Shown in pieces: positions 29,436 through 58,926 of a stretch of 64,000 nucleotides of DNA. The stretch is taken from the NCBI GenBank assembly GCA_027575765.1, contig JANBPT010000088.1, positions 1 through 64,000 of the forward strand, in the 5' to 3' direction. Position numbers and translations under genes: made by a program. How positions within the stretch are numbered: the first letter of the stretch is position 1; every line of letters starts with the position of its first letter. Under the pieces are notes generated by a model that saw only the letters and a program-made list of their open reading frames with translations, made no database searches and was not told the DNA's origin. Origin of the DNA: Tieghemiomyces parasiticus (Eukaryota; Kickxellomycota; Dimargaritomycetes; Dimargaritales; Dimargaritaceae).

Positions 29436-30359
29436 TCAGGATGGGCGATAGAACACACCAAAGTTAGGGAGGGGCGAGGTTGGGGGGTCGAACTGATTGG
29501 TAGACCGGTTCATGTGTTCTACGCTAAAGGGCGTCGACGGCACGAAGCCGTTGAGGTAATTAAGTGGAGGCTGCGAGCCGTGCGTGCCGTCACTCAACAC
29601 GGGGCTGGACTGAGAGGGCGATACAAGGTCGTTACCGTGTCCGACCTGAAGGTGTACGTAAGGGAACGACGAACTCGACATTGGGGTAGGGGCAGACACG
29701 GGGGACTCGCTCTGGAAGCCACCGAACCCCGTGGATGGCACGGTGTACACGGGGCGGGCCCATGCTCCCGTGTCGACGTGCAGCGGTGCTGAGCTCGTTG
29801 ACGTCCCGTGGGCATAGTGTGACTCGGGAGGCCCGTACACGTTGATGGTCAAGGGTGTGAGCTCGTTCTCGGTTGGCGGGTGCGGGGAGGAGCGTGCGGA
29901 TAGACTGGTGCCCATAGGGCTCCGCTTATCCTCAGCGGCTCGCTCGCGCTTCATCTTGGCACGGCGGTTCTGGAACCACACTTGGACCTCACGTGGCGTC
30001 ATGCCCGTCTGTTCCGACAGTTGCTTGCGCTTTTCGGCGTTGGGCTTCTGCTCCTTCTGGAACACGCCCAACAGTATGGTCAGCTTCTCGGGCGTGAGGC
30101 GCTTGCGCTTTTTGACCTGCTTGTAGGGTGGGAGCGGCGGTTGGTCAAACTCGTAGTATGGACTCGGCGGGGGCAGGTTCAGGTAGGGTGCCGGAAACTG
30201 AGGGTCGAGTTGAGGCCGTGGCGGAGCTGGCTGATTGAAGATCGGGTGGCTAGGCTCGATACCGAGCACGTCGTTCTTGGTCGAGAAGACGTACGGTAGC
30301 CAACCTTCCTCCATACCCATCATAGGGTAATGATGGCCGTTACCATGGGCGGAGTCCAT
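29436..30359 (-). CDS. Homeodomain transcription factor
   Basis: A single exon encodes 307 residues. The homeodomain spans about residues 82-141: a basic N-terminal arm (VKKRKRLTPEK), helix 1 around LTILLGVFQKEQKP, helix 2 around EKRKQLSEQTGM, and the recognition helix REVQVWFQNRRAKMKRE with the invariant Trp, Phe, Asn and Arg. It is a typical 60-residue, non-TALE type. The flanks are rich in Pro, Ser, Tyr and Gln, as in activation regions, and the N-terminal 80 residues hold many proline clusters. The nearest general type is fungal Phx1-like regulators, but I cannot assign an orthologue. The gene stands alone between two gene-poor intervals. Confidence 0.92.
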   Translation of the reverse strand: MDSAHGNGHHYPMMGMEEGWLPYVFSTKNDVLGIEPSHPIFNQPAPPRPQLDPQFPAPYLNLPPPSPYYEFDQPPLPPYKQVKKRKRLTPEKLTILLGVFQKEQKPNAEKRKQLSEQTGMTPREVQVWFQNRRAKMKRERAAEDKRSPMGTSLSARSSPHPPTENELTPLTINVYGPPESHYAHGTSTSSAPLHVDTGAWARPVYTVPSTGFGGFQSESPVSAPTPMSSSSFPYVHLQVGHGNDLVSPSQSSPVLSDGTHGSQPPLNYLNGFVPSTPFSVEHMNRSTNQFDPPTSPLPNFGVFYRPS

Positions 30360-31167
30360 AGTGGTTAGAGGCGAAAGAAATCGAAGAATAGAAAGTACGG
30401 GTTGAAAATTAAGGAACGGTGATAGCCGTACTAGTGGTTGGGGTATAGGTCAAACGTAGCCAATTAAGCACTAAAAAAATGTTGTTTTAAAAGGTCAAAT
30501 GCCCGGATCGGCTACGGTAAGCAGTGCGGCGAAAGGAGGTGGGAAAAGGACTGGATAGGTCCGTGCGGATGTGGGGCTGCGGCCGAGGGATGGCGGATGT
30601 GGACTGTCGGACCTATATTAGGTGCAGGTGGGAGGGTGGGGAGCGGGGAAACGATGTATGTATATATAGGAGAGGAGGACAGTTAACATGGTTAGCGTGA
30701 CTAGGTTGGTGTGGTTTAAGATAATATGTCGAGCGACTGGAAAATGTGTAGGACCGGCGATCAATGGTTGTGAATATATAATGCGACCAAATCAGCAGCG
30801 CCGCGTGAGCGTGCGGTCGCGTTACGACCGCAGGGTTAAAAGGAGGGGGATGCACACAGCGGCAACCTGCCGTGCTGCTAGGTGTGAGTGGTCAAGGGAA
30901 TAAACGCTGCCTACTGACTTAGGCACCCGACCGAACAAGGTGACGGGCCGGCGCAGGGATGCGTCAGGGGAAGCCAAGCAAGGGAGAGAAGGCGGGTGAC
31001 AGGAGAGAGGAGGGCGATAAAGGTAAACGGTGTAATCGAGGGTGGCTCGAGACACCTACCCTACAGAACCTCCCTCCTTTTTCTTTCCCGTACATCACTC
31101 CCCTTCAGGCTGTCGATAGACCCGTTGGCCGCTAGATCCTAGGAGGTTTAAGAAACCCCGCCCGTGA

Positions 31168-35500: not shown

Positions 35501-38500
35501 AGGGAGAGCAAGGTAAAATGGGGTATTGGACCTTACGAAATGAGGACTGATGGCTGGCTAGCCCAATCTGTGAAGACCCACCACCTTCATCTGGTACCTT
35601 TGTAGACTCCCCTTCCGGTAGAACGCACCTGGGCCGGAGACAGCGGAGGGATCCGGAGAGACGCTACGTTGGCCAAATGCTCATCCATACGGTGAGAGGT
35701 AGCCCTCTAGGTTACTCACCGGCTACGATACCCCGGTACTTGTCGGATACTTCAACCATTCGGCCGGCGTATCGTGTCATTTTCAACCCCCGCCCTTTCT
35801 TCGCGGCCGGACGAGCCCTAAACGAAAGCAAACCGTCCAATAGAAGTCCTTCCTCCTGACCCCACCTTCGAGCGTGTTAGCGAAACGGTATTGGGTAGTA
35901 AGGGAAGCGTAAGTCCATCAATCGCTCCACGGGAGCGAACCGAACACCGGAAAGATGAGTTTATAAATAGCCTACCAGGCCCATCAGCCGTAGATCTTGG
36001 CCGATATTCTTCTAGGGCAGTGACGCACCATCACTGATCTCGATGGTGATCGGCGACTTGTCGCCAAACGTAATGGTAACTTATAGGGCCAACCAATAGG
36101 CTTATATAGAAGCAGCTGAAAGTTAAGGTGGCTGCTTATGTGGCAGGGTACTTTGGAGGAAACCGGTCCTTACTATCCATTCCGCCGGTGTATTTAGCGT
36201 GCAGGTTTTCGTTGACAACGTGAGTAGGGTACATTAAGAACGACACCTTTGGTATCCACTGGCCCTTCATTATTTGTGGGCAATTACCCACAATGCAATA
36301 CGCTAGGGGCCTGCACTGTTTATTGCATTGAGAACTCGGTACAAGCTAGCGGCTTAAATGTCGTGTAGCTTTGCGGTGGTTTGGTGTCCTACCCTCGGGT
36401 TCCACACAGCTACACACAATAAGCTCGCCGACGGTCCTGGATTTACCAGTTAACTCTAAAGTGTAAACACCGACGCAAGGGTCTCACTCCACCCCCCCCT
36501 CGCAGTTAGATGGATATTGAATAGATCTCGGGATAACCTGCCAGATTCAGACGATGACTACGGCACGAGATCAGGTGAATAGGCTGTATCATACAAGGTG
36601 AAACTCTAAGGATGCTACTAAACTGCCAGAGACGAGTGCCGGGGGGGACCTGACTACAATGGTAGGCCGAAAAATATGTCAGTTCTGCTAGTGTGGTAAA
36701 TTGTATTTATTTCGGAGCCAAATTTTGCAAAAGCCGTCAATAACACTGCTCAGGCCCGCACTTGATCGGCAACGTATATCCTTGGTGTAGCAACTCGGCC
36801 TTTTGGGAACCAACCTCAACCCACTCGATAGCACATCAGCACCATGTTGATACTGTGGCCCGTCTATTGTGACAGTGGTGCCTTATTGTGTCAATTGTGA
36901 CTAAACAATTGACGCGTCCTTGGCCTAGGCCTTGTTGTATAAAAGTTTTATTACTGCTATTAAAACCGCAAACGTCGTCCACGCTATTCCCTCTCTAAAT
37001 ACTTTGTATTATATCTCAAATAATACCAGTACCCGATGGCAATGCACCAATTGGTTACTGTTAGGTAAGTGGGGCTTTGACGGCCGTCCCATTCGCTCTA
37101 TTTCGCACCAACTACTAGTGTAGGGCCGATTACCATAAATTGATGGCGATAAGCAAGTGATAGGCAGCCGGGGGAAGGTTTTATTAGAAATCAGGCCCAG
37201 TGGGCCCTAGTTGATGGACCATCCGATCGTCCTCGTGAAGGCGGGGGAGGGAGGTTGCGGTGGGCCAAGGTGCGGACACCATGGTTAAAAGGATTATAGG
37301 ATTCAGTCTATTGGGACGCTGCCAGTCCTTGCCTACCACCGCTGCACATGAGCCATTGGTTTTAATGTGAACATATGGGACATAAGCCAGGGGGGAGATA
37401 AGAAACAGGACACGGGTATATTTGTGGGCAGTTAGACGAGTCGCCGTTAAAATTTGGGGTCAAGGGGCCCTGGGACTCAGACTACTAATTTCAATAATTA
37501 GGAATATTGTTCCCAGGTTTTAGGGTCATCTAGCTGAACACCGGAAATATACTAGTTAAATTGTCCTGGGACAATCATCTAGAGGTAATAGCGACGTGGG
37601 GTGGTTGGAAGCTAAATTGGTGCCCGGTAATGGAATGGAAAGCACGAAGGGTACTAGGACAGCCCTCAAAAACACTATTCTCCTCCAATCGCGACAGTCC
37701 CGGTTGGAACGGTACTATTGATGGCTATCCGGCGTGACTTGCCGTACAATACAAACGAGGTGACACTTTCATGCAAGCCTAAGGAAAAAAAGAGAGACTT
37801 CATGGCGTAAGTCCCAATACGTGACCTTATATTGTGTGGACGACGCGGGACCAGTCGATGGCTTCAGAATACTACAACTCAGTATAGCCATATAGTTAGC
37901 CACATCCTGAAATTACCATCGACACAATTTAGAGTTGGGCAGCCCTGAATAGCCCCCTGCTTTATTATACGCGTAAAAATCCCCGGATTTAATCAATCAG
38001 TGTGGCGTAGCAAAGCTTCAATCGGACACGCAGTCAAGTGGGAGGGGGAGGGGAGTTCGGCGCTACTAGAAGTCTGGCTATTCTCCCACGATTGCCTGGA
38101 GCAATAGGTACCGGCCGACCATTCCACTGCCCATTGCTAGCCCCAGGTCTTCGTCAGTTTCCAGACCTGCGGGCGCCTCAGCTAGGTTGTCATGTAGCAA
38201 GTTGGAAAAAGGGGACAGATGGAGGTCCGGATTTTCGTTGTCCGAGGCGTCGGCCACCTGCGGTGCGCGGGGAAGTATGGAGGTGTCCTTGGTAAGAAAG
38301 AAATGTGTTTGACTACTCCGACAAGCAGCATTCGAGCCGGCGGGAGACCCTCCCTGGCGGTACACGACCGACCATTCGGTGAAGTCGTGACTATGATTGA
38401 GTCGAGAAGCGGAGTGGTGGGCACATAAGGGGGGGGTGAATATGTGGATGTTAGCCTTGCGGTTGTAAAAAAAGGTACAAGAAAATGAACGTAACCAGAG

Positions 38501-38681: not shown

Positions 38682-41454
38682 TCACCCCACCCACACCTCA
38701 TGTAGTGTGGTGTGCAGGATAGAGGAGCTGGGAGGGGGGGGTGAGAGAAACGACTGTGGCAAACTTACCTTGTGACCAGATTCTCCATCATAGTGTTGGT
38801 ACCATTCGAGAAGCGCGGCATCACGATACGCAGGCGGAGGGGCCGGTCGATCCGAGGATCGCGGGTGGTCTCTTGGCTCTCATCGTCCTCTGCTCCATCG
38901 GACTCGTCAACCGCATCAGACCTGTCTTCCCCACCGCTGGGGCGACTAAAGAAAGTCAGCAAGGCCCCGACGATCTGTCGAAGGCTTTCGTAGGGAAACA
39001 GATGCACCTGGACCTTGATCAGGGCCCACACTTCCAGGCAGCGGTGCAGCTGGCGCAGACGGGTGAGCTGTTCGGCGTGACTGACCTGCCCATCGAGGTA
39101 GTACTCTAGCTGCTGGTGGGTGGCGAAGTGGTGGCCGATCAGGTGGAAACAGTAGTCGAGACGCAGCTTATAGAGACCAATTTCGACCAGAATCTCGAGA
39201 GGCTGTTCCATCCAGTAGTCGAGGGTACTCGCCAGACGGTCCCGCTGTTCCTGGTAATCCGGTACGGTCTCCATTTGCGACAGTTTGATAAAGTCACGGA
39301 TCACCCGGGCGAGACTCGACGGGTTGGCCTTGTCCACCTGAGCGAAGCCAGTCGGGTAGGTCAACGACAGTGGGTTGGCAGTGAGGTTATAGTGAAGTGA
39401 GGAGGAGGGTCCGGAATAATGAAAAGTGATGCAACCAACGGGCTCAGTCTGTTGCCCCGGTGGTGAGCGGGTCGCCCTGGCCTTGTCGAGCATCCAGGAC
39501 GCTTGGTGTTCTTCCATAATCGCTACTTACCACCAGTTTGAGTTTGCCAGCTTCGAGGTGCTCGGCAAGGGCTGAAATGGCCTCGGTAAGGTCGGCCTGC
39601 GACTGGGCCGTCTGGCACAGCTGCCAAAACCGTTCCGTGAAATCCTGGTCCTTACGCGCCGGTAGCTGGTAAAATAGATCCGGCAGGTTTGGATCAGCCT
39701 CTTCACCAGGGCCGACAGTGGCAGGTATATCCTTATCCATGTCACGGCCGTCTTCCGGAGCCAACTCGCTAAAGAAATGATCGACGCGGGTGACGAAGGC
39801 CGGCGAAACGGCACCTGCCGCTTGTTTGCCAGGGTCGCCAGGCACAGTGGGCCAATCCAGATAACCCTGTAGAATGCCATTCCAGATCATGAGGTACTGT
39901 AGCTCGCCCAAAAGCCCCTCGAGTACAGCGTGGGTCTCGCGGTCGATCTGGCCGGGGAAACTAAACACATCCAAAGTGACATGAGCGGAGAGGGGCGGGC
40001 CCCCAATGTGCAGGGGCTCGGCGAGCTGGCCAGTAGGTACATCCCATGCGGCTTCGACGTACACTGTTGAGGTCGACGGGGTTAGGTCGGTCGGAATGGC
40101 CGCAGGAGTATAGAGAGGGCCGCCCACGAGGTAATAGCGGGCCCGACAGGCCACGTGGGGCGGGGCCCCGGCACGGTCAACGGGGCGACTTCTGTGGATC
40201 AGAGCCTCGGCACCTTCACGGCTAAGCACCAGCTTGGTAGGAGTGATCGTCCGGCTGGCGCTGCACACTGCCCGCAGGTCAACGCTGAGCACGCTCGGCA
40301 GGTCCTGCGGCGAGGCTGGATAGCGCAGGCCGAGATAAACCGTGCCGCGTGGGGCCCGCGGGGTTGTGACGGCAGCCAAGACCAACGGGCGGGTGGCGGC
40401 GGCGTCGGCGGTGAGCGACGTGCTCAATTGTGAGAGTCGGTACCGGCCGTCTTCGTACGCGAGCGGCTGGAGAGGGTCGGCCGACCAGTTCACTCGGTAT
40501 CCGAGTGAGGAGGGCGTCTGGCACCGTAGAGAAGCGAGGGGAGGGGAGCGATTCGAACAGAGCACTATGGTTAGAATCAAAACGGGTAATCGCCAGGGCC
40601 CAAGGTAAATGGGAACCGTTCAGCCCGCAACGAACGTCCTACCCTAGCTCCCAAGCCGGTGACCTTCACCACACATGTTACCATTAGACTGACCTGACTT
40701 TCTACCTGACTACTCGTGCGGGTAGCCCTGGTGCTGACACCCAGCCCGTCGATGTGGATGGCATGGAAAGGTTGGACCTGGCGGGTATTTAACTGGGAAT
40801 CGGGATAGGGAAGAGGTAGCGCAGGTAATGTAAGGGATTAGGCCCAACCATCTGCGAAGCTGATCTGGAGGGCCGTGCGTCAAGGGCACTGCGTTTGCCT
40901 AAATCTTACTGACACGGGGTCCAGTTTTCCTAAGTACATACCCCATCCAGGTCTACGGCCGGGGACGTGGGTGCACTAAGAAGGTAGAACTCGGGGGTGC
41001 CGACGAAACAGCGCAGCGGGTGGTCGATGGCGGCGGGTATGTGCCAAACGAGGACGTCCTCGTATTCAATCGGCGTCGGCTCCTAGGTCAAGGAGAGGCG
41101 GCGGAAGTGAGGAAAATAGCCAGGCTATAGATAAGATTGTAAGGATGGTTGGCTGGGTTGGTTATGAGGCTACCGTGTGGTATATTTAGCGGGTCTCAGA
41201 CCGTAAGTCTGGCGCGAGAATAGCAGCGGTCGCTAGCCCCACGCTGCATTCCATACAAAAAAACGATCAGCATACATAAAGCAACTTGGCCCGAGTCATA
41301 GTGTCTCTCCCTTAGGCGGGAATGCCCGAGTTCCAGCGGAGTTTAAAGACCGGGGACGCCCACCTACTTCAAGCTGAGACAGAGATTCGTTGGCTAGGCG
41401 GGCCTGGGCGAGTGCATGCCAGAGGCTGGGCAATGGGGAAGGCTCGGCCAACAT
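38682..41454 (-). CDS. ZWILCH: Zwilch, RZZ kinetochore complex subunit
   Basis: Six exons: 41368-41454, 40942-41082, 40694-40777, 39531-40517, 38769-39337 and 38682-38727, about 637 residues. Zwilch joins Rod and Zw10 at kinetochores to build the corona and recruit dynein and Mad1-Mad2. Family landmarks in order: an early VLVWHIPAAID and GTPEFYLLSAPTS region; AHVTLDVFSFPGQ then LLGELQYLMIWNGILQGYLD; DFTERFWQLCQTAQSQADL; then SSLARVIRDFIKLSQ, PLEILVEIGLYKLRLDYCFH, LIGHHFATHQQLEYYL and LRQLHRCLEVWALIK. The last block matches the best conserved C-terminal part of animal Zwilch. Uncertain: exon 3 may end at 40706, the first exon rests on phase alone, and the last intron is only 41 nt (without splicing the protein ends at 38765). 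Confidence 0.78.
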
Positions 41455-41939: not shown

Positions 41940-44385
41940 TCACTTTTGAACTCGGTACCGGCAATCGGGGACAGCCTTTCGCTGGTTCCGCGGCGTACGA
42001 TTCACTAGGAGGAAACCGGCCGTATCGTCCGCCACGGCGGCTGGTGCGGCCGAGGTGTTGGACGGGGAGGTTTCCGATTCTGACTCGCTCTGCGATACGA
42101 CACCATGATTGTGGACCTCGGCATCATCCTCTAGGTTGGCCAAATCGATGGGGACCGGTGGTTCGGTAGCCTGGGCCTCCGTGACATCAACCAAGTCATC
42201 GTCACCTGAGGGGGCACTACGTGACCCGGTGGGGTAGCGCACGAGGGAGGGCGGGGAACTGGTTGGGGATACAGGCTGCCGGTGGAGGGACGGCCGGGTG
42301 GACGCGACGGACCGGTGGCTAATGTACTCGTAGGTAGACTCATCAGCCTCGGCGTCTGCCGCCGGCGCTCTCGCCGTCATCACTGAGTCAGTAGTAATAG
42401 TAGCAGTACCTTCACCGTTGACCTTGCTGGTGACTCCCCGACTACCCATGCCACCTTCGCTTCCACTGTCCTCCGCTTCCTCCTCATGGTCGGAAAAGCC
42501 TTCTGAGGTGAGGTAGGCTGGCGTGCGCTCAGCGATGGTCACGATGGGCGCACCCTTCTGCTGATGGGCCAACTCGGCGAGCCGGACCTTCAGGTCGGCA
42601 AATTCGGTCGTATTGCGCACGTAAAACCCCAGCAGCATGCATGGGTCGACACGACTCAGCGCCACTTTGTTGGGTGCAACGCAGTGGTAGGAGGGCAGGT
42701 CCGCCGAGTGGGGCAGCCCATCAGCCGGGTCCAATCCCGCAGCCGGCCGAGTGTAGTGTGGATCGAGGAAGATGAGGTCGTTATCCTCAAAGCCAACAAA
42801 GTACGCGGCCGAGGCGGGCTTCCCGCCCGCGATGCCCACGAAGTGCGGCAGGCTGAAGCAGTAATTAACAAAGGGATAGTACACGGGGTTGACCTGATGG
42901 ATACCCAGACGGGTGGATACGAGGATCAGCGTGGGGCCCAGCATCTCACCGTCGTCGTTGTCGTTACCATCCTCGGCCGTGGCACAACATTCGGTAAATA
43001 GCTTGTCTTGGTAGACCACCCCGTCGGTCGCCAGGAAAACGCGCAGGTCGAACGGACGAGACTCGTTGATCAGATCTCTGTGGCATGGAACGTGGACGGT
43101 AAGGAAGGCAATGGGGTCAGAACTAGATGTTTTGAGCCCGGCTCGAGCGGCTGGCATCAGGTGGCGAGGGTAGCGATCAGCCAGAAACCAAGCGCCAAGG
43201 TGCACCGGCCGACTCGCACGCCCGCATTCTGGACTGCTTACCGGATAACGTGACAGGCTAGGTGCGGCCCGAACCACTGGCCCACGGCAACATCGAGGTC
43301 CTGACCGCGCTGGCCCATCCGGTGGACGGAGAGGGCGTACTCGTCACCAGGGTAATCAGCCACCAGTTTTAGGATCTGTGGGTGTGGCGTTGGATTGGTG
43401 GTCCGCGAAAAGGGAAAAGGATATTAGTGAGCAGCGCAGGCCAGTGGATATGCTAGGCGTCCTTAAACCGGCATTGGTTACTAGACCCGACTTACCTGGC
43501 GGTACGTCCGTTCCATTTCGGGTGTCGATGTGTCCAAGGTCCAGTCTGTGATAGATGGGACGTAGAGGAATGCACGAAAGTACTGAAGGGTTAGCGCAGC
43601 AGCGGACGGTAAAACGAGGGGCGTATACGCTCGACTCGCCCGCAATCATCCACTTATGATGAAGCACCACTTACCCCGTCCGAGTAGGTGAAGCACGTAC
43701 GCCTGGGCCACGAGCGACTGTGCGGCACGGAGCATGCACCCCCATCCAGCGTCGCTTGTCAGGCTAGAGTTGGGCAGGGTGGGGAATCCCGACCGGTAAG
43801 TGCACCAGATCCGGCTGCGGAAGTCGGCCAAAAAGGCGCTCGGGTACGGGCGGGCAACAGTGGGCAACCGCGGGGTTTGGAAGGAACTGATGAAACCGTA
43901 AGCCGACTGGGTAAACGTGGAGACCGTGGAGGCCGGGGGCGGGGTGGCCGGTCGCGCTGTCACAGGAGGGTCCGTGGTCTCCGGGTGGCATTGAGGGTCG
44001 GCAGGGGCAGCCACGGCGTCGCTGACGGGTTCAGGGGCGGGCGGGCCGTCGGCGGGCCGCGGATACCGTTTGCCGAGGAGCCAGAGCTCATTCGAGCGTG
44101 GGCCGGCTGGGTAACTCCACTGCTCCACGGTGTTCGATAACGTGTGCAACCAGGTGCGCACGTTGTGACTGACGGCTTCGGTGAGGCTGGTTCCTCCTGC
44201 ACGAACTAAGGTGAGGAAGGGGGAGGAAGGCGGCGCGAAGTCATAGCATAGCGGGGCTGTCAGCCAGGTACGGGGGCGAGTTGAGTGGACGTAGACGGGC
44301 CGGTGCGGCTGCACGAACTGGACAGACACTTACCTGGACTCCGCTCGGGAGACGGTCCGGTGGACTGGTCAGAATGGCTCATCAT
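41940..44385 (-). CDS. ATG4: Autophagy cysteine protease ATG4
   Basis: Exons 44334-44385, 43675-44205, 43496-43545, 43242-43375 and 41940-43122 join in phases 1, 1, 0 and 2 to encode 649 residues. Atg4 trims the Atg8 C-terminus and later releases it from lipid. Seen: WLLGKRYP, RSRIWCTYRSGFPTL, SLTSDAGWGCMLRAAQSLVA with the catalytic Cys (about 174), LLGRDW across a splice, YALSVHRMGQRG, QWFGP, then PHFVGIAGGKPASAAYFVGF and LIFLDPHY carrying the catalytic Asp and His (about 375 and 377), and VDPCMLLGFYV. A Ser/Glu/Pro-rich tail of about 190 residues follows, so the protein is longer than the usual 400-500. Near its end, acidic residues precede GFLLV, a possible Atg8-interacting motif. The start is uncertain: the frame stays open upstream without an ATG, so an unseen first exon is possible. 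Confidence 0.88.
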
Positions 44386-45183: not shown

Positions 45184-48040
45184 TTATAGGTTGCTGTGGA
45201 CAATGTCCTCGGTCTTCCGAGTGGGCTCCCACATGTTTTCACGGGCATGTTCCCGGAGGGCCTCGGGGGTCTTAAGACGGCGCACCACATCGTCTTTGGC
45301 CACGCCGTCCTTGAGGGCCTGGGTGCAGATGGCCTCAGCCACATCCACGCTGACCTCGCGGATGCGGGTCAGGCGAGGGTAGAGCAGGTTGTGGGCCTTC
45401 TCGTCGTCGTTGAGCGACCCGGCCAGGGACTTGGCGGCGGCGTAGATCATGGTGTCGGTGATGCACTTGGGCTTAGCCAGAGTGGCGCCCAGGCCCAGGC
45501 CGGGGAAGATGTACATGTTGTTACCCTGCCCGGGGACGCGGATCTCGTCCGTACCGGGAACCTGGTAGGACGGAAAGGCGGTACCCGAGGCGAAGATGAC
45601 GCGATTGTCGGTGTGCTTCATGGCGCTGGCGAAGGTGCACTCGGCGTTGTCAAGGGGATTGGACAGCGGGAAAACGATGGGGCGCTCGTTCAGCTCGGCC
45701 ATGCGCTTTAGCACCGCCTCGTCGAAGACACCGGACTGGGCGCACAGGCCAATCAGGGCGGTGGGCTTGACGTAGTCGATGGTCTCGAGCAGGCTCTTGG
45801 ACTGGTGGCCGTCGTTGTCCTCACGGGCAAAGAACACCTTGTGCTGGGCCAGGCGGTCGCCGCGGTCCTTGGTAATGAGGCCCTTGCTGTCGGACAGCCA
45901 AAACTTCTTCTTGGCCTCCTCCTCAGAGTAGCCGTGCTCAATCACGAAGTAGTCCATGAGCTGCTTGGCCACCCCCACCCCGGCGCTGCCCGCGCCGTGG
46001 AACAGGATGCGGTGCTCGCGCGGGTCCACGGGGGCCTGCTGGACGGCATTGATAAAGCCAGACAGGATGACGGCGCCGGTGCCCTGGATGTCATCGTTGA
46101 AGCAAAAGTAGTCGTCGCGGTACTTGGACAGAAGGTCGAAGGCGTGCTCGGACGAGAAATCCTCGAACTGGATGAAGATGTTGGGGAAGTGGCGGGTGAG
46201 GGCCTTCATGACCTTGTCGACGGCGGCGAAGAACTGCTCGTCATCGGGGCGGTGCTGGCGGAGGCCGAGGTAGAGCTTGTCTTCGAGGAAGCGGTCGGTG
46301 TTGGTGCCGAAATCAAGGCAGATGGGCAGGGTACGGCGCGGATCCAGGCCGGCGGCGGCCACGTAGAGCTGCAGCTTGCCGACCGGGATGCCCATGCCGT
46401 TCACACCCAGGTCGCCCAGACCCAGAATGCGCGAGCCGTCGGTGATGACGGTGATCTGCGGGGTGAGCTCGGGCTCGGGCAGAGCTTCGATGTAATTCCG
46501 GAACAGCTCGTCGAGGTTGTCCAGGTCCTTGAGCGAAATGAAGAGGCCGTCAGGCTGGCCGGGCGGAGCAAGGAAGGGCAGGATATGGGAGTACTGCAGA
46601 CAGGCGGAGCCCACGGTGGGCGTGTAAATCAACGGGGTGATTTCCTAAGAGGTGAGGCGGGGGGCAGCAGCCAATGGCAGGGGGGAATAGAGGCTGGATG
46701 AGTAAGGTTTAGGTACATACTAGGCGAGCATTCCCTGTGGCATGTGACCGGCCGGAGCCCAGTAGTCCCTGTGGATCCGGCATGGGCGCCGGAGGGAGGC
46801 TGGCCCGTGACAGATGATAGGATGGGAAGCAAAGGCGGATGGAGGCTGACGGCGTGTGAAGGACCCCTAGAAGGTTGCCAATCCAAGGGCCCGGAAGATG
46901 TCTTGAGGAGTCACCAGCATCCCAAGGGAGGACACGGAGCGACCGCTCTAAGGCACTGAAGGGAAGGCGGGCTAGAGGAGTCAGGAGCGGCAGCGAGGGG
47001 CGAAAGGGGGGCGATATCGCCAAAGGACTACCAGTATATGGTAGGTGGCAATTAATCGACGGTGGGGTACTCACACCCATACACTTGCCCCTCCCGCGCC
47101 GCTACGCAGGGCGCCGCTCCTACGTCCCAATTTGGAAAAAGCCCCCACAACTGGGAGGGGATCGCCGCTTGCGGGCTGCCAGGCAGCAATGGCGTGCCTA
47201 ACACACACACACACACGCATAGGAATGCTGTCTCCCCGCGACAAGGTGTAGTGAATCGCACGAAAGGGGGTGCAGCCGGAAAGGCGTCCAGACGAAGAGG
47301 GAGGGGACGAGGCAGGCTCGCGCCACCTGATATTCCATCGTCTGGGCAGGGCCGTCCGCTACTACCAAAGAAAGAACGGGTCTAGCGCCCGGAAGGCGTT
47401 GCTGGCTTACCTCGAGGTTATCCAACAGCATGCGGTAGAAGAGCTGCAGGTTGGTGTTCTTAAGCCAGGCCAGGAACATGTACTTCTCCAGGTCGGTCTT
47501 CTTGAGACGGAGCTGCTCCATGGCCCGCTCCTCCTGGTTCTCAAAGCTATCGATGCCCGAGGGTACCAGGCCGCGGAGGTGGAGCTTGTCCCGCACGTCG
47601 CTCGGCACGACGGTGCCTGTCGATGGAGGGGTCAGTGGGGGGGAGCATAGGAGGGCGCGAGTCGGCTGTGTGAGTCGACAGGGCCGTAGGCGGTGGACAG
47701 CGGCTGCTGTGCCGGCGCGTCAACGCGAATGCGGCAGCTTACCCTGGTTGTCAAAGCTGGAATGGACCCAGTGGCGGGCAGCCTCCTCGTCCTCAAAGAT
47801 GTTGGGGGAGTGTCTGGAATTCGTCATGGCGGTGGTGGAAGACGAGTAGAAGCGGCTAGCGAAAGAGTGGCAGGCGGGCGTGGGTCGAAGGCAGCGGGGT
47901 GGACGGGTGGCCGGCAGAAGGGTAGAAAAGTGGAGCTGGCCAGGCCGGCGGAGGGCGCCCGGGGCTTTTAATAGGGCGGAGGGAATGTGCAGGCCGCGGC
48001 GAAGCGTCCCGCCATAGAGGGTCAGCGGGCCGGCGGTCAT
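45184..48040 (-). CDS. NAD(P)-dependent malic enzyme, mitochondrially targeted
   Basis: Exons 47743-48040, 47411-47616 and 45184-46644 join in phases 1 and 0 to encode 654 residues. It converts malate to pyruvate and CO2 with reduction of NAD(P). Seen: VPSDVRDKLHLRGLVPSG, EITPLIYTPTVGSACLQYSH with the catalytic Tyr, ITDGSRILGLGDLGVNGMGI, the metal-site signature YFCFNDDIQGTGAVILSGF, the Rossmann loop FHGAGSAGVGVAKQL, and SNPLDNAECTFASAM. The first 70 residues are rich in Arg, Leu, Pro and Ser with few acids, as in a mitochondrial presequence. A second Met (MTNSRHSPN, about residue 72) precedes the conserved part and could start a cytosolic form. I see nothing that decides cofactor preference. 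Intron 2 (46645-47410) is unusually long at 766 nt. Confidence 0.93.
47201..47216. repeat. (AC)8 microsatellite in an intron
   Basis: Eight AC units inside the long intron 2 of the malic enzyme gene. Confidence 0.95.
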
Positions 48041-51489: not shown

Positions 51490-52827
51490 TTATTCGATGT
51501 AGTTCATGAGCTTATAGTTGACGGTGTTGCGCTTAATAATGTCAACCACGGGGCCGAGCAGCCGCACGAAGGCCTTCTTGCCGAGGGTAGCGCACTTAAG
51601 CCGACCCTTGGCACGGATGGTGGCCTGGCGGGGCTTGTCATTGAGCAGGGCCAACTCGCCAAAGTAGTCGCCCTTCTTAAGGCTCGGGTAGGTGCGCGTG
51701 ATGCCGTTCTCCTCCTTAGTGACGGTGGCCTCGCCCGACTCGATAATGTAAAAATTGTCGCCCACGTCGCCCTGGCGGATCACCACCTCGTTATCCTGAA
51801 AAACTACCGTGTCTAGAGCGTCGGCGATCTTGTGCCGCTCGTAGGGTTCCAGAGACACGAGCAGCGGGACTTCCTCTAGAAACTCCTCGTAGAGGCGTCG
51901 CTTGCGCGAGGTGCGCTCCATCAGTATCCGGCGGAAGGTTACACGGTCCAGCGCCCACACCAGCGCGTCGGAGGTGGCCCGCACCGTGGCCGCACGCGGC
52001 GAGTTGTACATGAGGGCCAGCTCGCCGAAACTTCCGCCGGGTCCGTACTCGTACACCTTGGTCGGCGCGGCCTGGTCCTTGGCTACAAACACCTCGAAGC
52101 TACCCTTTTCGACCACGTAAAAGTAGTCGCCAATATCGCCCTGCCGGATGATCTCCTCACCTTGGGCCATCGACTTCTCGGCCATGGCGTCTACCACGTC
52201 GCGATACTGCTCGTCATCCAGGTTGCGAAACAGAAAGTTGTTGGCGATGGAGGTACGGATACGTGCGCGCTGGTCATCCGACTTGGGGATGACGATCTTG
52301 ACGAACTCCTCGTCTGTGGTGGGGGCCATGGATTCGGCGCTGACGGACGAGCGTCGGCCGCGGTTGTACGCTATCATGGGGTCAACCTCGGGCGGGTGCG
52401 GCTCGTCCTGCATCAGGTCGTCCTCGTTAAATTCGGAACTGGCCCGGCGGGCGGCGTCGTGGGTTGGAGATGTGGTGACCGCCGCCCCGGTCACGACAAG
52501 GGGCTCGGCTTGCTGCCAAGTAGGCGGGGTGGTTTCCGGGAAAGGGCCCTCGCCGAGGGTGGCCGTAGTCAGGGTGGGATGGGTAGCGACGTGCGAGTGC
52601 TGCAGGTTCTGGGTGATGACCGGTACGGTGGCGTTCTCGGGCGCCGGAAGCAGCGGGATGTCACGGAAGTGTGGGTGGTCGTGGGCTAGACCGAGCAGCT
52701 GAGCCCGCTGCTGCGCCAACTTCTCCTGGAAGAAATAGGCGCAGAACTGGTACAGATCCTTGGGCTGGACCTTCAGTAGGGCCTGGTGCAGCTCATCCAG
52801 CACCGCCTGGTGGTCCCCAGAGCTCAT
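51490..52827 (-). CDS. cAMP-dependent protein kinase regulatory subunit
   Basis: A single exon encodes 445 residues (Bcy1/PKA-R type). It binds and inhibits the catalytic subunit until cAMP occupies its two pockets. Seen in order: an N-terminal dimerisation/docking helix region (about 5-45, LDELHQALLKVQPKDLYQFC); a disordered linker; the inhibitor site RGRRSSVSAE (about 156-165), whose Ser at the P-site implies phosphorylation by the catalytic subunit, as in type II and fungal subunits; then two cyclic-nucleotide domains. Their phosphate-binding cassettes are GGSFGELALMYNSPRAATV and GDYFGELALLNDKPRQATIR, each with the Glu and Arg that contact cAMP. Between them lie ALVWALDRVTFRRILME and DNEVVIRQGDVGDNFYIIES. 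All landmarks of a functional subunit are present. A second basic site, RRASS (about 127-131), lies upstream. Confidence 0.96.
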   Translation of the reverse strand: MSSGDHQAVLDELHQALLKVQPKDLYQFCAYFFQEKLAQQRAQLLGLAHDHPHFRDIPLLPAPENATVPVITQNLQHSHVATHPTLTTATLGEGPFPETTPPTWQQAEPLVVTGAAVTTSPTHDAARRASSEFNEDDLMQDEPHPPEVDPMIAYNRGRRSSVSAESMAPTTDEEFVKIVIPKSDDQRARIRTSIANNFLFRNLDDEQYRDVVDAMAEKSMAQGEEIIRQGDIGDYFYVVEKGSFEVFVAKDQAAPTKVYEYGPGGSFGELALMYNSPRAATVRATSDALVWALDRVTFRRILMERTSRKRRLYEEFLEEVPLLVSLEPYERHKIADALDTVVFQDNEVVIRQGDVGDNFYIIESGEATVTKEENGITRTYPSLKKGDYFGELALLNDKPRQATIRAKGRLKCATLGKKAFVRLLGPVVDIIKRNTVNYKLMNYIE

Positions 52828-53849
52828 GGCAGACAGGTGGAGAGATGAGGCGAGTGTGAGGAGGTTTGGGATGGAAGTGAGGGAGATGAGCCAAGTACAA
52901 AGTTGGGCAATGCCTTAGCAGGGGGAGGCTGTTACAGAAGAGAGCCGGTGGCTTGAGGTGGAAGGGCTAGCGACGGGAATGGGCCGTGGCTGCGAACAGG
53001 AAATGCGAGAAATTGTGAAGCAGGTGGCTAGGAATAGAAGGCTAGGGCTCAGCTACGTGGGAGGCTACGCTGGCGAAGGTTATAAACCAGGGGGGACGAG
53101 CTAGGTGGAACCTCCTGGCGTCCGCCCCGCGCGTGCCCTCATGCCTTTACTCTTCGCCCTCGCCGGTGGGCGGGGCCCCGGTGTTAGGGCGCCTTTATGG
53201 TAGGCGCAGGGAGGGAGGAGTCTCTGGCGGCTCTCCGCCATGCCACTACATTCGCAAACTGGGTGCCAGGGCGACGTTAGGTCGGCCGGACAGGCCCTTC
53301 CCGCCCTACTAGGGGGAGCAACAAAGGGGCCTCCACAGTGTGAAACGATATGATGTGCACGCGCGATCTGGCCTTCCCGCGACTCGGGCACAGTTGCGGT
53401 CTCCCTTTGGGGGTAAGAAGGCGGCTCTGGGCCTAATCGTACGGGATGGTGACGGCTGGCCTCAGGCTGCAACGCTCGGAGCCGATCCAAGCCGCACCGA
53501 CCGCCCTCGCTCTGGTCGCGGTAATTCCGTTATCCCTTCCCACAAGTCCCTTATTCCTAGGGGGACCATGGTGCTTCGCAGTCACGGGCGGACGGCGCTG
53601 GGCTATTGGTTGGTTTGCCAGCAGGCGGGGGGGGGGTATAACCACTCCACATTGAGTTTAGCGTCTCCCACAATTCGATTGGGATGCCCAGCCCTGGCTG
53701 GGCCCGCTCCTACGAAGGCATAGGTGGTTACCGTCTACCTCGCGCCAGTCGCCACGCTTGTAAGATCTGTCCACATATCCTCCTTCCACGCGGTGTTATA
53801 TCGCCCAATCTTGTACAGCGCCATTTCACAAGACTCAATACGCTAGCCC
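52828..53849. other. Divergent promoter region
   Basis: Lies between the divergent starts of the PKA regulatory subunit and the Siw14/Oca-type phosphatase. It has a 10-nt G-run near 53629. An open frame at 53340-53723 lacks an ATG start and any family resemblance. Confidence 0.4.
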
Positions 53850-57154: not shown

Positions 57155-58423
57155 CTAGTCGTCATGCGCGTGGGGACCAACGTCGAGGGCGTCCATTAGC
57201 CACGTGTCGTTGGAAAAGGTATCGTCGGAGTCATCTGACTGGTCAAAGATGAGGTTGAGCGCATAGAGAAGGATGGTCAGGCAGGTGCTGAGCCACCGCC
57301 ACCAGACGAGGTCGAAGGCCGCCGCTGTGCCAGGATTTTGGAGCAGCGAGTGGGTATAGACCGCCAGCCAGAGCGGGCGAGTAAAGTCGGTCGCCCCGGA
57401 AATCACACCGGTGACGGTGACGGACTGGTTTTCGGACCCGTGGTTAAAGGCCCTACGGTTCCGGCGCCAGAGTCTCTGTACCAGTTTCGTGGCAGTGGCC
57501 AGGATAGCAAGTCGGTACAACATGGCGGCGACCAAGTCAAAGGAGTAGGCCTTGCTCAACTCAACTGCGACGGTGGCGTATGGGAAGGCCATTGAAATTA
57601 GCGGGGTGGCCAGGGTTTGGGCGGTCGAGCGGGCGAGGGAGGCCGGGAGTTTCCAAAGACGATCCCGCAGGCCCCGGAACCAGGGCTGTCGACCAGTTGC
57701 GTACGATGCAGCCGCGGCGGCTGCGGCTGTGGTGGCATTCACGGCCGCAGCCTGCGCAAAGTAAATACCAAGGGTGGTGTGGCCCACGAGGGTCGCCAGT
57801 TCAACCACGTTTCCACGGCCCAGGCCCAGACGGAGTCCGCCCAGGAGGACACTGGCGGTGAGGCAGACGGCGGCCAGGGCTCCCGCAGCGATGGAGGACG
57901 CGTGGGCCGAGTAAAAGGCGTAAATGTAGGTACTGGCGGCGGCCAAGGTCCCTGTGGCCAGAAAGAGTAGAGGCAGGCGGTACCGTTCCTGTGCTTCCTC
58001 GTCGCCCATGCAGGTCAATTCCCGGGTCAGACGCCCCGCCACGCACACCACGAGCGCTGCTGCTAGGGCCTCGAAAAGCAGTGACGCAGGTTCTGCCGCT
58101 CCGAGTCCGTAGGCCCAAAGGCGGGCGGGAAGGTCCAACGCAGCGAGGACGTCCGGTTGGACCAATGCCAGGTACGTTAGTAAGAGGCCTGTGACGGTCT
58201 CGGCGCTGTCTATAGTCTTGCGCACGAACGCCTGGCGTGAGGCGCCATTCCGAGCACGTACGAGGGCGCGAAGGATGCTGCCTACTACGGCCGCCAAGAA
58301 GTAGCCGAACCCGAGTTGCACGGCCAGCCGCCGGTCGGCAAAGGTGGCGGCCACGGGCAGGGCCGCCAGCGGCAGACTGTACAGGAGCGTAGAGAAGAGA
58401 TGGGGGATGAAGAAGAGGAACAT
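57155..58423 (-). CDS. ICE2: ICE2, ER membrane protein
   Basis: A single exon encodes 422 residues with many hydrophobic helices and no soluble domain. Ice2 shapes cortical ER and restrains the phosphatidic acid phosphatase complex Nem1-Spo7, favouring membrane over storage lipid. Seen: an N-terminal signal-anchor-like start (MFLFFIPHLFSTLLYSLPLA); Ala/Leu-rich helices; a short conserved segment ending PLWLAVYTHSLLQNPG; then WWRWLSTCLTILLYALNLIF, which matches the yeast Ice2 C-terminus (a 'YTH.LLQ' helix, then W-rich helix). An acidic Asp/Ser tail follows. I chose the Met at 58423 because the preceding open stretch is hydrophilic and unlike the family. Its stop lies 180 nt from the convergent FRG1 stop. 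Confidence 0.85.
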   Translation of the reverse strand: MFLFFIPHLFSTLLYSLPLAALPVAATFADRRLAVQLGFGYFLAAVVGSILRALVRARNGASRQAFVRKTIDSAETVTGLLLTYLALVQPDVLAALDLPARLWAYGLGAAEPASLLFEALAAALVVCVAGRLTRELTCMGDEEAQERYRLPLLFLATGTLAAASTYIYAFYSAHASSIAAGALAAVCLTASVLLGGLRLGLGRGNVVELATLVGHTTLGIYFAQAAAVNATTAAAAAAASYATGRQPWFRGLRDRLWKLPASLARSTAQTLATPLISMAFPYATVAVELSKAYSFDLVAAMLYRLAILATATKLVQRLWRRNRRAFNHGSENQSVTVTGVISGATDFTRPLWLAVYTHSLLQNPGTAAAFDLVWWRWLSTCLTILLYALNLIFDQSDDSDDTFSNDTWLMDALDVGPHAHDD

Positions 58424-58926
58424 ATTTGGCGGATAATGAGTTGCGGCAGCGACGTGGTGGTTAAAATATTCGGGGTCGTGGCCACCCGAATGCGGCCCAC
58501 TTGTTGGGGTGAGGCATGCGCAGTTGCTGATGTCAACAGCCCTGACATGGACCTCGGCTGGCATTACTGTTCCTGAGTCCCCCATATCGTCGCTGGTCAT
58601 TAATCACGTGACTGTGACGTCTTCCGGTCGGTTGTGGGTAAGGAGAGTGGTGGTCGATCTGATGGCGGTCATTCCCCCAGGTAGCGGGGGGGGGCAGGTT
58701 CTCGGCGCAGTCGGAATAAGTGCTTGACGGTTCACCTCCACCTGCAACAACGTCAGTGCTGACGCCCTCCCTCCCTCATACCCTCCGTCTCATAGCCTCT
58801 TGACGCCGCCCTCCTTGTACAGCTCTAACCGCTCCTGCTCCCACCCACTTCACTACCTGACTTCATCACTCGCTGTTCCTCATTTAACTCACCAGAACAC
58901 CTACCTTCTCCTCCGCGCTATTCACC
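58424..58926. other. Divergent promoter region
   Basis: Separates the divergent starts of ICE2 and SFA1. A G-run lies near 58687. CT-rich sequence precedes the SFA1 ATG. No coding exon seen. Confidence 0.4.

Follow-up and report, generated by a model that had tools for sequence, protein, structure and literature searches.

A six-exon Zwilch gene in Tieghemiomyces parasiticus, with genes for ROD and ZW10 in the same genome

Introduction

Do fungi of the order Dimargaritales keep Zwilch, and with it the three-subunit RZZ complex of animals, in which Zwilch and ZW10 are bound on ROD? The question was raised by a stretch of Tieghemiomyces parasiticus DNA, here called the window (64,000 nucleotides at its full length), in which a reading of the sequence had predicted a fungal Zwilch gene of six exons and, from it, an RZZ kinetochore complex. 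The literature on fungi, as given in the text of the papers cited here, has several strands. A survey from 2006 reported Rod and Zwilch as absent from every fungus examined (PMC1557759). Van Hooff 2017 found that the phylogenetic profiles of ROD and Zwilch correlate (r = 0.859) and that ROD, Zwilch and Spindly form a module apart from ZW10 (PMC5579357), and Wu 2023 (PMC10630089), citing that study, refers to a full RZZ–Spindly set in fungi and animals. The original prediction assumed that yeasts as a rule lack RZZ, and this fits what the text of published surveys says.

In the literature that we searched on Zwilch in fungi, taken as text apart from figures and supplementary species lists, nothing concerned Dimargaritales, and a search for T. 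parasiticus and its genome returned no paper.

The Zwilch gene model

The gene lies at 41454-38078 on the minus strand of the window (Table 1), and its spliced product has 726 amino acids. All five introns (285, 164, 176, 193 and 378 bases, 5' to 3') are of the GT-AG type and the exon phases join; with the match to the Zwilch family profile PF09817 reported below, these features bear out the predicted six-exon gene. The three landmarks that had been named for it, DFTERFWQLC, LEILVEIGLYKLRLDYCF and FATHQQLEYYL, all fall within the gene and in the claimed order. The interval first proposed, 41454-38682, was exact at its start and wrong at its end: position 38682 lies in the last intron, intron 5, so the last exon had been misplaced, and the gene truly ends at 38078.

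Our model agrees with deposited P0001 (IWQ60_002358, 691 aa, entered as a 'hypothetical protein' of Tieghemiomyces parasiticus) except at one place: where the model has exon 3 followed by the initial nine codons of exon 4, P0001 has two other residues instead. Judged by its sequence, exon 3 is the part of the model in which we have least certainty; it is identical to three relatives (Dispira parvispora, D. simplex and Dimargaris verticillata, each deposited as one protein) at 5, 3 and 2 of its 28 residues, and all three have residues there, with no gaps. At the start of exon 4, P106 and Y111 are invariant in all four aligned Zwilch proteins, this one and the three relatives, and exon 6 is identical to the relatives at 18, 20 and 21 of 104 residues.

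Table 1. Exons of the Zwilch gene, its neighbours in the window and the two ZW10 genes of the same genome (window positions, except in the ZW10 rows)
Feature	Position	Strand	Description
Zwilch exon 1	41368..41454	-	ATG at 41454; 29 codons; start identical in deposited P0001
Zwilch exon 2	40942..41082	-	47 codons
Zwilch exon 3	40694..40777	-	28 codons; absent from deposited model; least certain exon
Zwilch exon 4	39531..40517	-	329 codons; holds DFTERFWQLC
Zwilch exon 5	38769..39337	-	holds LEILVEIGLYKLRLDYCF and FATHQQLEYYL; conservation highest among exons
Zwilch exon 6	38078..38390	-	stop codon 38078-38080; residues as in deposited P0001; beyond the interval first proposed
ATG4-type cysteine peptidase (Peptidase_C54)	41940..44329	-	directly upstream of Zwilch, same strand; at least two frames; unrelated to RZZ
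Homeodomain protein	29436-30449	-	Pfam
Malic enzyme	45184-46644	-	Pfam
PKA regulatory subunit	51490-52914	-	Pfam
ICE2-type protein	57155-58603	-	Pfam
ZW10-A	C1121:16754-19501 (L016:1754-4501) and C555		four exons, 777 aa
ZW10-B	C76 (L018:2706-5756) and C850		five exons, 810 aa

Identity of the protein

The profile search that the original prediction had proposed as its check placed the spliced protein at 61.2 bits against PF09817 (E 8.7e-17, residues 385-537 of 726), far over the curated cut-off of 25 bits. Unspliced, the open frame around exon 4 reached 16.1 bits and that around exon 5 reached 33 bits, so splicing adds profile signal. When the single protein was searched against the sequences of the PDB, human Zwilch came first (7qpg_B, E 2.4e-11, 45.9 bits) and second (3if8_B, E 6.4e-9), and further matches had E values of 0.66 or more; the aligned core spans residues 239-538 here and 208-475 of human Zwilch (7qpg_B).

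PF09817 is also matched individually by all four dimargaritalean proteins of our alignment, and a profile of these four sequences finds 7qpg_B at E 9.5e-18. A profile made from the three relatives only gave the spliced Zwilch 600.7 bits (residues 8-663), whereas 200 shuffles reached 6.7 bits at most; one reversed-sequence control did not appear in the best five rows of that search. The N- and C-terminal parts are linked to Zwilch solely via the relatives, which have them in the same order. Two protein searches, their reach narrowed by a word filter, matched 2 of 7993 and 4 of 7995 candidates, every match being dimargaritalean, a result that does not bear on other fungi. An AlphaFold model from the four-sequence alignment had a mean pLDDT of 38.8 and a pTM of 0.29, values too low for the model to be of use.

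On the strength of these sequence comparisons, the protein is the Zwilch of a fungus. It resembles human Zwilch (PF09817; 7QPG chain B, 3IF8 chain B) in its conserved core, in landmark order and in co-occurrence with ROD, whereas it is longer (726 versus 591 residues), has poorly conserved ends and carries an acidic stretch near residues 568-595 that was spotted by eye and is unaligned to the human protein.

A second copy of the locus

The genome holds a second Zwilch copy on contig C896 (pair C1231/C896), which aligns at 93.45% identity over about 10 kb, introns and flanks included, without a break. Here the six exons stay in frame with every splice site preserved, and the sole exon gap is 3 bases. 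Between the copies there are 78 exon substitutions, which fall at codon positions 1, 2 and 3 in the numbers 16, 9 and 53. Exons are 94.1-97.7% identical and introns 91.5-96.0%, and because these ranges overlap, the argument for the gene model is the third-position bias and not identity. By this comparison the Zwilch gene is intact, with a purifying pattern between its two copies.

A pair of contigs was found for each of Zwilch, ROD and the two ZW10 genes described below, ZW10-A and ZW10-B (C1231/C896, C643/C507, C1121/C555 and C76/C850, respectively). Because all four aligned pairs are 93.5-95.6% identical with their flanks, the assembly seems to hold two haplotypes; duplication of the genome or of segments was weighed as the alternative source of the double matches. 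RINT1, MadBub, Mad1 and a Sec39 candidate likewise gave paired rows, judged from the search rows without alignment.

ROD and two ZW10 genes in the same genome

As a further check, a search of the same genome for Rod and Zw10 had been proposed, and it turned up a ROD gene and two types of ZW10 gene, which puts genes for all three RZZ subunits (Zwilch, ROD and ZW10) in one genome. ROD appears, unspliced, as two consecutive open frames of 2207 and 304 aa. It matches Rod_C (133.6 and 53.5 bits) and KNTC1 ARM domains 1-3 (71.6, 91.5 and 100.3 bits) in Pfam and 7qpg_R in the PDB (E 9.6e-61), with the N-terminal domain KNTC1_N below threshold (22.3 against a cut-off of 27.1 bits). Its two contigs are 95.6% identical, and 161 of the 252 substitutions in the frame between copies are at third positions.

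The two ZW10 genes are distinct, both full-length and each on two contigs. ZW10-B exceeds the Pfam cut-offs for ZW10_C2 (61.6 bits), ZW10_C (55.2 bits) and Zw10_middle (39.7 bits), with Zw10_N and Dsl1_C under theirs, and its best PDB match is 7qpg_W at E 8e-37. ZW10-A has the same best PDB match at E 8e-14, matches ZW10_C only in Pfam (52.4 bits, cut-off 25.8) and has no match at E 1 to Zw10_N, Zw10_middle or ZW10_C2; its relatives in two Dispira species match Zw10_middle as well. Profile searches of the genome with PF06248 (Zw10_N) and PF20665 (Zw10_middle), run without a control match, returned nothing, and the PF20665 search evidently misses ZW10-B, since spliced ZW10-B matches that profile at 39.7 bits.

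An alignment of the two proteins covers about 350 positions at 24% identity (E 1.9e-7); given this divergence, and with no DNA match at E 1e-5, we reject the view that the two are haplotypes of one gene. Along residues 9-739 of ZW10-A, identity to proteins of the two Dispira species is 35-36% (E below 1e-151), whereas ZW10-B is 23-24% identical to these same ZW10-A-type proteins (E 6.5e-6 and 1.1e-5). Because ZW10-A is closer to the Dispira proteins than ZW10-B is, it looks older than the split between Tieghemiomyces and Dispira. In these comparisons ZW10-B is the canonical gene, and ZW10-A is divergent and common to Dispira. With exon phases applied, third positions account for 52 of 83 substitutions between the copies of ZW10-A and 46 of 70 between those of ZW10-B, and from this bias both genes look functional. 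A protein search with both paralogues matched 3 of 7994 candidates, all of the ZW10-A type; ZW10-B, which the genome does encode, was not among them, and this is not evidence of absence.

In the deposited annotation, the divergent ZW10-A (P0005), whose sole Pfam match is ZW10_C, is entered as 'ribosome biogenesis protein ytm1'. Just downstream of ZW10-A in T. parasiticus is an AMP-binding enzyme frame (L016:5373-6500, 190.5 bits), and a deposited Dispira parvispora protein, P0007 (IWQ62_000526, 1405 aa), fuses ZW10-A with an AMP-binding enzyme. The fusion in D. parvispora may be an annotation error; because the enzyme adjoins ZW10-A or is fused to it, the ZW10-A neighbourhood is common to the two species.

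In the literature searched we found no pair of ZW10 paralogues divided between RZZ and NRZ, and such a pair may be in print in figures or supplements. On copy numbers, the text of van Hooff 2017 names ROD and others and not ZW10 (PMC5579357), and that of PMC8290106 has lineage-specific duplicates of other CATCHR genes, without a ZW10 example.

Checkpoint and tethering genes

Mad1 is present in the genome (99.3 and 87.9 bits; the same search also gave matches under the cut-off in 2 of 14 control genomes). MadBub (Mad3_BUB1_I) occurs as two gene types, at 133.4 and 90.4 bits and on two contigs each (C460/C36 and C486/C102), so that Bub1 and BubR1/Mad3 may each have a gene of their own in this fungus. 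A genome search with the SKA1 profile, run without a positive control, gave no match.

RINT1 is present at 218.5 bits, and the best genome match to Sec39/NAG, a pair of rows, is below threshold (E 0.063, 15.7 bits against a cut-off of 22). Compared with the NRZ/Dsl1 tether (NAG, RINT1 and ZW10), T. parasiticus is thus alike in having RINT1 and a ZW10-B with three of four ZW10 Pfam models over the cut-off and Dsl1_C below, and differs in that NAG/Sec39 appears below threshold only.

Discussion

We think it very probable that this lineage has kept an ancestral RZZ module that yeasts lost, with an intact Zwilch alongside ROD and ZW10 and with RZZ at unattached kinetochores as in animals. Zwilch, ROD and a ZW10 would assemble as their animal counterparts do; the complex would sit on unattached kinetochores in mitosis and would help to bring Mad1–Mad2 and dynein there, thereby running the spindle checkpoint and then switching it off. 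The step from the Zwilch gene to a complex, which the original prediction took, is reasonable because ROD and ZW10 genes lie in the same genome. Relative to animal RZZ (ROD/KNTC1, Zwilch and ZW10), the same three subunit genes are present, and ZW10 is represented by two full-length genes.

There is a small chance that the protein is a true Zwilch orthologue in a ROD–Zwilch–ZW10 assembly that has no kinetochore role in this fungus and works elsewhere, for example with dynein or in interphase membrane tethering. We know of no trafficking role for ROD and Zwilch. ZW10 does have one, in NRZ (PMC5579357), and the presence of RINT1 and of the sub-threshold Sec39 pair would suit a tethering function; however, in the text of the same study the ROD and Zwilch profiles match each other far better than ZW10 matches either, and the genome has the checkpoint genes Mad1 and MadBub, which points back to the kinetochore.

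That the Zwilch exons come from separate transcripts, or are what is left of a decaying pseudogene, is very improbable. The deposited model does omit exon 3 and splice differently there, but the two copies agree in frame and splice sites and differ mainly at third codon positions, and the profile of the three relatives, each one protein as deposited, runs along nearly all of the spliced product (residues 8-663). The window comes from a genome assembly of 1363 contigs (46.5 Mb), yet it is scarcely credible that the sequence is contaminating DNA of an animal or of a different fungus: the closest relatives found, in Dispira and Dimargaris, are 38-42% identical, human Zwilch scores just 45.9 bits against 415 for Dispira, and a second copy aligns across introns and flanks.

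The two ZW10 genes raise a further possibility, which we hold tentatively and think rather doubtful: that the double life of ZW10 has been split in Dimargaritales, with ZW10-B serving the NRZ/Dsl1 membrane tether and the fast-diverging ZW10-A acting only at the kinetochore and evolving in step with ROD and Zwilch. If true, this would be a natural separation of two functions that one protein carries in animals, and if the genes do divide the labour, a kinetochore ZW10 could be studied without disturbing membrane traffic.

The original prediction gave the locus more weight than it can carry. Because fungal RZZ genes are already in print, as the text of two papers indicates (PMC10630089, PMC5579357), this gene is a further case of retention rather than evidence of a new kind; the module is the same as in the fungal RZZ–Spindly sets of Wu 2023 and van Hooff 2017, whose text passages name no dimargaritalean species. 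What the locus adds is placement: an RZZ gene set is now located in a Kickxellomycota lineage, the Dimargaritales. The Zwilch proteins are deposited as 'hypothetical' and ZW10-A under another name, so surveys by name would miss them. Their recognition extends by one lineage the record of where fungi kept or lost kinetochore corona machinery.
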